From Fuerstiella sp. (GTDB lineage: Bacteria > Planctomycetota > Planctomycetia > Planctomycetales > Planctomycetaceae), in contig JAKVAZ010000001.1 in NCBI GenBank assembly GCA_022447225.1, positions 62,001 to 126,000 of the forward strand: 64,000 nucleotides of DNA, given 5' to 3'. The notes under the pieces are model-generated. The model did not search any database and was not told where the DNA came from. It worked only from the letters and a program-made list of their open reading frames with translations. The translations under genes and the position numbers were made by a program. This document shows, one piece after another, positions 50,215 through 52,931 of the stretch (position 1 is its first letter; every line of letters begins with the position of its first letter).

Positions 50215-51141
50215 ATGCAAACGGTGGAACAGCACTCGTCTGAAAAACCAAAACTCAAACGTCGGCTCGGACGCGGACTCAATGCACTTTTGGGTACACA
50301 GGACGGTGAATCGGAAGCTCCTGTGCAGCTGACATCACCCGCTGCAGACGAAATCAGCGTCGAACTCATTCAGCGCAATCCGTTTCAGCCTCGACGCGAA
50401 TTTGATCCGACCGCGATCAATGAACTGGCAAACAGCATTCGGAAGCACGGGGTATTGCAGCCATTGCTGGTTCGTGCCATTGAAAGCGGTTATGAGCTGG
50501 TGGCCGGAGAACGCCGCTGGCGAGCGGCTCAGCAGGTAGGCCTGGACAACATCCCCTGTCGGGTCGTGGAGCTCGAAGATCACCAGGTATGTGAAGCCGC
50601 GATCGAAGAAAACCTCAAGCGCCAGGATCTGAACGTTCTTGAGAAGGCTGAAGCCTTCCGTGATTATCTGGAACGTTTCGGCGGAACAGTTGAAGAGTTG
50701 TCGAAGCGGCTGAGTATGAATCGTTCGACGGTCAGCAACATGATGCGCCTGTTGGAGCTTCCCGATCATGTGCAGGACGCCGTGCGACACGATCGTATCA
50801 GTGGGGGACACGCACGCGCTTTGTTACCGCTGCGGGCAGAAGCTCAAATGGAATTGACTCGCCAAATCGAAGAACAGTGTCTTTCCGTGCGTAAGACGGA
50901 GGAAGCGGTGCGCCGAATTCTCAAATCCGGTCCGGTACCGGCAGGTTCTGCGACAGCAGCACCACCGACCACAACTCAACTGTCGTCACACGTGATTTCT
51001 TTGCAGGACCAGTTGAGAGAAGCCCTGGCTGCACGGATCGACATCCGCCTGAAGAAGAAGGAATCGGGTCAGATCGTAATTCACTTCGGTTCAAACGACG
51101 ATTTCGAACGAATTATGGGTCAGCTTCGTAACGCAGCCTGA
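50215..51141 (+). CDS. parB: ParB-family chromosome partitioning protein
   Basis: 308 residues from ATG 50215, with aagggg at 50199-50204 as the likely ribosome site. The in-frame ATGs at 50206 and 50176 and a long upstream extension to 49990 are less likely. ParB features: 'RLGRGLNALLG' at the N-terminus, 'IQRNPFQPRREFDPTAINEL', the conserved 'GYELVAGERRWRAAQQVGL', 'AAIEENLKRQDLNVLEKAEA', and the HTH 'TVEELSKRLSMNRSTVSNMM'. A dimerisation C-terminus follows a Pro/Thr linker. ParB binds parS sites and loads SMC near the origin. No parA is adjacent in the window and no canonical parS palindrome was found. The 303 bases between the preceding stop (49911) and this start hold no other gene. Confidence 0.93.
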   Translation: MQTVEQHSSEKPKLKRRLGRGLNALLGTQDGESEAPVQLTSPAADEISVELIQRNPFQPRREFDPTAINELANSIRKHGVLQPLLVRAIESGYELVAGERRWRAAQQVGLDNIPCRVVELEDHQVCEAAIEENLKRQDLNVLEKAEAFRDYLERFGGTVEELSKRLSMNRSTVSNMMRLLELPDHVQDAVRHDRISGGHARALLPLRAEAQMELTRQIEEQCLSVRKTEEAVRRILKSGPVPAGSATAAPPTTTQLSSHVISLQDQLREALAARIDIRLKKKESGQIVIHFGSNDDFERIMGQLRNAA

Positions 51142-51600
51142 CCTGCCGGTTTCTGGTCGGTTTGGTCACAGCTGATCACAGGGCGGAGGGAGTTGCAACT
51201 CGTCAGCAGAGAATTCGTTATGCGATTCGGTTCAGTGGACCCTCTGCCTGGCGATCCCGCCACAGGTTCGATGTTAAGTACAATTAACACAATCTTTAAC
51301 ATCGTTAATATCAATCTGAACACTTCCAAATGCGTTGTGGCGCGCCGGCTGGTCATGCGGTCTTCCGTAAATCATTGAACCAAAAACAGTTACGTTGCGG
51401 TTACATCGGCAACGATTGAAGGAGATTTTCCGGTTGGCTTAGAAAATGCCGGTACGTTCACCTGTTGTGACAAAAGCGATTCTATGGATTTGATCGATTG
51501 TTATGTCTGTCGCTGAACTGTTGAAAGCCTGTTCGGCGACAGGACATGAGAGAGACGCAATTGTACTGGTCCGGAGAATTCGGTCACAGTGAGGGAAATC

Positions 51601-51777
51601 TGCGGTTCACAGACCGCAACGGGCTGCATAGCAGTGGTCCGCATTCGTCCGACAGGGAAGGGTTCCCTTGCCCTTCCCTGTTTCGGATGGAATCGCTTCT
51701 GAGGTTATTCCTGCGGAAGGACTCCGAACAGTTTGGTTCACAGACCTTTAGCTGTTCCATCCACCGGCATTTGCCGG
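51601..51777. ncRNA. Candidate structured RNA: four hairpins in a row
   Basis: Inverted repeats occur in succession: tgcggt/accgca (51601-51618); ctgc/gcag (51624-51634); acagggaaggg/cccttccctgt (51652-51681, perfect 11 bp); ggatggaa-tc-gct paired with agc-tg-ttccatcc (51685-51762); and ccggca/tgccgg (51764-51777). Several stems are perfect or broken only by a symmetric internal loop, and no gene crosses the region convincingly. It does not match the RNase P, tmRNA, SRP or 6S signatures I know. Strand is undetermined. Confidence 0.4.
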
Positions 51778-52128
51778 CTGCTGTGTTATGGTGCGGCGGC
51801 GGTGTTATGCCCACGGGCTGACTGTGCAAACGCCACCTTCGAACAGCTGGGATGACTGTGTACAAACACCGCAGATGAATGATGCGTGAACGAATGTGTC
51901 ACATGTGCTTGCAGCGACATTGTATGTCATTCACAGTGTCGATACGCGTATTGCGCGGATGAAGGCAACTGACGGGCCAGGCATTTCTGCCAGGGTTCCC
52001 GGATACAATGAAGCGGGTGAACCCCAGGAAATTATTCTTCAACATTCCTGATTCTGTGTGGTAGCACCGGTTCTCATCCAGCGAACCTTTGAGATCCGGA
52101 CTGTCCGCTGAACATCCTGAATAACAAC

Positions 52129-52162
52129 GAAAGAGGGCGAACCAGTCGGTTCGCCCTCTTTC
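52129..52162 (-). terminator. Strong rho-independent terminator after the lipoprotein gene
   Basis: Perfect 15-base arms gaaagagggcgaacc and ggttcgccctctttc around a four-base loop, 46 bases past the stop of the leftward lipoprotein gene. Both ends are A/T rich, so it may work in both directions. Confidence 0.92.
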
Positions 52163-52208
52163 GTTTCGTGCCAAGTCGTATTGCTTTATGCAGTCAGCTG
52201 ATTACGGT

Positions 52209-52931
52209 CTAGCGTGTGACGGATGCCGGGGCACCGGATCCGGCCCCGACGGAAACCCCGGAGGAAGCTGCTGCCCCGCCAAGTCGCGGCGCAGGAATGC
52301 TGTTGTTGTACAGTTCATTAATGATTTGAACTTCGGATGCAGGTCGACTGTATTCGCGTCCGGAGCGCACAGAAACAGTAATTTTTTCCGATCCGTTTGT
52401 TAGTTCCGCTAGTGCACTTTCGACATTAATCAGTCTTTCGCTGTCGATGCCAGGATCCCGGGCAGACTGGACATAAACAACACGCCGCTGCAGCGGTGTG
52501 ACTTCCAGAATCTTTAGTAGATACAGTCGACCAGGTCGTGTGAGTGTCTGGTCAGCGCTGTCAAAGTGCCGATTGTACAGCGTGTTTTCTTCAATCCATC
52601 CGTTGATTTTCTGGACTTCCATAATGTTTTCGACGTACTGTCGGTCTGCACACACGTAAGGAAGCGGCCAGTAATGTGCTGCGTGGAATGTATGAGAAAA
52701 CTGCTGGCCTTCTCCGGATGGTCGTGGACGAACCGGCCAGATCTTACCTTTGCTGCACTTTTGGCGAACACCAGGCGTGATTTGGGCTTTCTCAGACCAC
52801 CATCGATCAGACCCTGGTTTCGCACTGGAATAAGGATCCGTTTGTTCGATCAGACTCGGCCCGGTCATACAGCCGGAGAGCAACGTCATCATTACAAACG
52901 CAAGACTCCGGGGACTATCAATGGTCCTCAT
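52209..52931 (-). CDS. Lipoprotein of unknown function
   Basis: 240 residues. N-terminus 'SLAFVMMTLLSGCMTGPSL' is a lipoprotein signal with lipobox L-S-G-C, anchor Cys21. The mature part has 'HAAHYWPLPYVCADRQYVEN', a Trp/Tyr-rich segment, then a basic region with 'RLYLLKILEVTPLQRRVVYV' and a C-terminal Ala/Ser/Gly-rich tail ('GGAAASSGVSVGAGSGAPAS'). I recognise no named family. A strong terminator follows and no coupled gene precedes, so it is probably monocistronic. Confidence 0.8.
   Translation of the reverse strand: MRTIDSPRSLAFVMMTLLSGCMTGPSLIEQTDPYSSAKPGSDRWWSEKAQITPGVRQKCSKGKIWPVRPRPSGEGQQFSHTFHAAHYWPLPYVCADRQYVENIMEVQKINGWIEENTLYNRHFDSADQTLTRPGRLYLLKILEVTPLQRRVVYVQSARDPGIDSERLINVESALAELTNGSEKITVSVRSGREYSRPASEVQIINELYNNSIPAPRLGGAAASSGVSVGAGSGAPASVTR

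Follow-up and report, generated by a model that had tools for sequence, protein, structure and literature searches.

A cluster of hairpins between parB and a putative lipoprotein gene of a Fuerstiella sp. genome (contig JAKVAZ010000001.1) raises the question of whether these hairpins belong to a structured RNA, as the initial annotation of this DNA had suggested, and, if so, what such an RNA might do. The cluster is real and well beyond chance. When 852 bins of 150 nt along the plus strand of the window (i.e., the whole 64-kb stretch of DNA that was analyzed) were folded, the bin at 51601 ranked first, with a fold z-score of -5.95, and the z-scores for a 356-nt region were -4.9 on the plus and -4.1 on the minus strand. 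Perfect stems of at least 11 bp occur in three separate places of the window; these comprise nine overlapping registers, whereas 0.3 would be anticipated from simulated sequence. The stems were recovered where they had been described, including a perfect 11-bp stem (51652-51662 with 51671-51681) and small perfect hairpins. The longer stem described as having TC opposite TG also exists, as a 13-nt pair that is 85% complementary (51685-51697/51750-51762; GGATGGAA-TC-GCT vs. AGC-TG-TTCCATCC), but it borrows the 3' strand of the hairpin called D below, and relatives retain D instead; the window sequence 3' of D was not alignable with relatives. Pfam bears out ParB as the left neighbor, and since neither Pfam nor NCBIfam returned anything for the other neighbor, its designation as a lipoprotein follows solely from a lipobox-like start. 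A search of the window for tRNA and tmRNA genes found none, and Rfam 15 gave no matches in the window (only sub-threshold ones at 51100-52300), in agreement with the view that no common RNA family accounts for the hairpins.

Comparison with relatives indicates that the cluster is the 3' part of a predicted, conserved plus-strand RNA of ~230 nt, at about 51461-51691. That is, the hairpins do lie at 51601, where the initial annotation placed the start, but the conserved structure begins ~140 bases earlier, near 51461; the 5' half (a sigma-54-like promoter, box 1 and hairpin A), the gene that usually follows and the orphan state of the window copy were not part of that annotation. The predicted RNA would open with box 1 (GTTGTGAC, 51464-51471), a motif near the 5' end that is exact or has one mismatch in all 24 accepted loci (see below) and is exact in the window. 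Hairpin A (51501-51549) was identified by a stem search of the window, and its counterpart in the congeneric genome G002 also folds into a long hairpin. Box 2 (GAGAGAGAC, 51548-51556) emerged from an alignment of 11 copies, with similar motifs in 16 of the 24 loci, and box 3 (TCACAGT plus a purine tract, 51584-51597) from alignment A6, the purine tract being present in 23 of 24. Boxes 1 and 3 can pair; the putative helix is compatible with the alignments and has its full 7/7 pairs in 16 of 24 loci (the register is doubtful in L153 and L155), and because it shows little covariation we treat it as a candidate only. Hairpin B (GGUUCACAGACC apex, 51602-51617) is supported by folding and alignments, hairpin C (51620-51641) by double changes at 8/8 pairs in 23 copies, and hairpin D (51644-51691), which combines an outer stem (TTCGTCCGA/TCGGATGGA) with the perfect 11-bp stem, by stem search, alignments and covariation. 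The A-D stems are all intact in the window copy. The apex sequence GGTTCACAGACC at 51605-51616 recurs exactly at 51735-51746, within a predicted stem, and some genomes of genus g53 have two B hairpins with identical loops. A small protein starting from the ATG at 51546 was considered and rejected, as the conserved block falls in different frames in the window and in G002.

A GG-N10-GC motif lies 29 or 30 bases upstream of box 1 in 22 of the 23 testable loci, the exception being G165, with GT for GC (the untestable locus, in G170, is cut by a contig edge). With a background rate of only 0.0055 per position, this recurrence is not due to chance, and we thus find a sigma-54-type -24/-12 element at fixed spacing. 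In the window, the core is TGGCTTAGAAAATGCC (51435-51450), which scores 7 of 12, the lowest value among the loci. The usual distance between the sigma-54 consensus and the start site would place the transcription start near 51461, at about 51461-51463 as judged from the -12 element. The DNA similarity between the window and G002 (~240 nt, 51461-51703) starts at this same place.

How widely the element is distributed was assessed with several searches. The window genome (G000), G001 and G002 make up genus g1, and the hairpins directly follow parB in all three, the G001 copy being truncated to hairpins C and D, with C beginning ~55 nt past the parB stop. Outside the genus, a pattern search based on the g1 sequence returned chance matches only and R1 weak matches; when a core model (R2) was run on 294 genomes of the phylum, the window genome was its only match. 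Clear homologues in another genus, g53, where they do not adjoin parB, were first obtained from R2 matches in g53 and from a relaxed pattern, most of whose other matches had no stem and were discarded by eye. A covariance model built on a 10-copy alignment (R3) then matched 25 of 170 family genomes at E<=0.05, of which 24 (Planctomycetaceae; genera g1, g6, g42, g47 and g53) were accepted; 14 of these are independent finds, since the other 10 had been used to build R3. The remaining match, in G153 (E 0.006), was rejected as it has neither promoter motif, box 1 nor the downstream gene, and the G001 copy, a 25th, was matched by R1 and R2 only. Nearly all of the 24 accepted genomes have a single copy. 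Among 397 genomes of the class, R3 recovered the same genera except g6 (absent among the matches of that draw), along with two weak singletons (G559 and G075) that were dropped for want of box 1 and the gene. In a set of 10 homologous loci, Rfam produced no match at E<=0.5, and a search for viral contigs yielded none.

The structure is supported by covariation, which the initial annotation had named, together with conservation in relatives, as the comparative check of its proposal. Four pairs are doubly changed in the three g1 sequences, and 16 of 34 pairs in the 10-copy alignment, a count reached in 0 of 500 shuffles. In 23 copies (the 25 loci minus G153 and the lower-scoring G137), 25 of 34 pairs, or 105 cells, show compensatory double changes, equaled in 0 of 500 shuffles, although this alignment leans towards the structure because it was fitted to the model. 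The element thus passes the check, and the suggestion of a structured RNA is supported by an element that is conserved and covarying across genera, on the plus strand and without an Rfam match. Conserved, covarying structure of this kind is also what a structured cis-acting 5' leader should possess.

In 23 of the 24 accepted loci, the RNA is immediately followed on its own strand by a gene of one family, which we call pilin-like; the window is the exception (over all 25 R3 loci, the gene cluster likewise follows in 23, the rejected G153 being the other exception). The name denotes resemblance only, since four of these proteins scanned against Pfam and NCBIfam matched no family in either library, including those that would place them among the Flp/type IV pilins. 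An N-terminal segment is shared by 22 of the 23 downstream proteins, and the protein of G135 joins by other similarity (e.g., its C-terminus). Between the RNA and the start codon lies a long spacer of variable length (136-465 nt, as measured in 17 loci), with few T-runs and an SD-like GGAG or similar sequence before most starts. About 5-8 pilin-like matches per genome were observed in G002, G135 and the g53 genomes, mostly without the RNA leader, and the boxes are largely missing upstream of these other paralogs. In the window, the region described as gene-free holds the C-terminal stub of a decayed pilin-like gene, NIPDSVW* (52041-52064, plus strand), whose upstream frame is broken by several stops. 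Relatives end in NIPDHVW, NIPEYVW or FPEYVW, and no other match of this kind occurs in any of the six frames of the window. The sister genome, G001, has no copy of the gene either, and the pilin-like N-terminus had no match in G001 and G043 and one weak match elsewhere in the window genome. A perfect 18-bp terminator-like hairpin (52126-52165), with the same stem in G001, separates the stub from the lipoprotein-like gene, which runs convergently.

Several explanations should be weighed against these data. Short stems are plentiful in the window (49 registers of at least 8 bp), which could point to chance; however, this explanation is refuted by covariation in independent genomes, the top fold z-score and the family matches also speak against it, and we regard its probability as negligible. 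That the inverted repeats act at the DNA level, through protein binding or cruciform formation, would also account for their visibility in the DNA, but seems very improbable: the consensus fold is stronger on the plus strand in alignments A2, A3 and A4 (z-scores of -7.5 to -8.8 vs. -4.2 to -4.9 on the minus strand, relative to column shuffles) and in A1 (-7.1 vs. -5.9), and a G-U pair is kept in all nine A6 sequences that have letters at that position, which favors a plus-strand RNA. The position directly after parB in the three g1 genomes, with hairpin C following so soon after the stop in G001, is what a 3' untranslated element of parB (a stabilizer or terminator) would predict. Yet R1 found no such element in parB-flanking loci of other genera, R3 matches outside g1 fall on contigs or places other than parB in the loci that were checked, and no T-run follows D, making a role in the 3' end of parB improbable.

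More serious, if still rather unlikely in our judgment, is the rival possibility that the element is a sigma-54-dependent small RNA in its own right, which acts in trans and has the pilin-like gene only as a neighbor. The RNA persists without the gene in the window genome and in G001, and between these two, 32 of 34 positions agree in the D stem and 1 of 8 in the D loop, compared to identities at 4-fold sites of 57.6% in parB, 55.2% in the lipoprotein gene and 69.5% in trpG, which shows that hairpin D has been under constraint since the two genomes split. No single finding speaks more strongly for a stand-alone RNA than one in G165, where a second, weaker tandem copy upstream of the main one (L156, oriented 545-800) carries a separate sigma-54 motif, has a comparable B apex and closes with a stem at the D position and nine T (T9), by sequence an intrinsic terminator. 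This is a single case, however, as a terminator directly after the RNA was seen only there and the other copies inspected have no T-run straight after D. The gene losses may also be recent: the well-kept stub suggests as much for the window genome, so that persistence of the RNA there is no proof of function without the gene. The gene stays directly downstream while the upstream neighbors differ (a divergent gene, whose product resembles an NAD-dependent epimerase by its motif, lies upstream in 13 of 25 loci), and for this reason a cis-acting leader is the most likely reading. Hence, we favor as probable the hypothesis that the element is a structured 5' leader on the pilin-like mRNA, transcribed from a sigma-54 promoter, and that gene loss has orphaned it in the window. 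The retention of the D stem without the gene in two genomes, the terminated G165 copy, the long variable spacer and the weakness of the window promoter, the poorest match of the set, all count against this hypothesis. Alternatively, and speculatively, the family may lead two lives, as leader of the pilin-like gene in most species and as a free trans-acting small RNA where the gene was lost (the window) or a duplicate gained a terminator (G165).

Under the favored hypothesis of a leader, RNA polymerase with sigma-54 would start near 51461 and transcribe the leader together with the pilin-like gene, on whose mRNA it would act in cis, with hairpins B-D and the purine-rich boxes affecting how stable the mRNA is or how it is translated. 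Two specific mechanisms found no support when tested, namely sequestration of the SD by D, for which pairing was no better than with swapped partners, and a switch between box 3 and D, for which the own 3' arm of D was only slightly better than swapped arms on average and worse in several genera. In the window genome, the gene would have been lost and the leader would remain downstream of parB, as a slowly decaying relic or as an RNA that is still made.

Sigma-54-controlled pilin genes offer a parallel, as their product is likewise short, with a hydrophobic segment near its N-terminus, and the gene follows a promoter of the sigma-54 type, but the protein here has no Pfam or NCBIfam match. 6S RNA (RF00013) is likewise a structured bacterial RNA of similar size, but RF00013 has no match at the window RNA, its sole match in this genome being on C15. 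That match (G000:C15:111345-111535) is a 6S-like RNA of 35 bits, below the cut-off, and G001 has one too. The leader motifs catalogued in the part of PMC2864571 available to us likewise have a conserved structure that covaries and precedes a single gene family, whereas the present RNA has no Rfam match, a sigma-54 promoter at fixed spacing, and orphaned and tandem-terminated copies. Table 1 of that paper includes a Rhodopirellula-1 motif from Planctomycetes and Proteobacteria, rated there as probably cis-regulatory and as ambiguous RNA, and given without an Rfam accession; its likeness to the window RNA is one of table description. A literature search, incomplete in coverage, returned no description of this RNA, and the accessible portion of PMC9850573 contains no matching passage.

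In conclusion, the element represents a new class of structured RNA, of a kind already known, and its copy in the window is orphaned. Structured RNAs on record for Planctomycetes are few, and one table in the consulted part of PMC9029176 gives eight sRNAs for the PVC group. The class is now searchable and supported by covariation, and its function is directly testable because promoter, start site and target gene are all predicted. The orphan copy in the window, in turn, provides a natural experiment that asks if a leader can persist as an RNA in its own right once its gene is gone.
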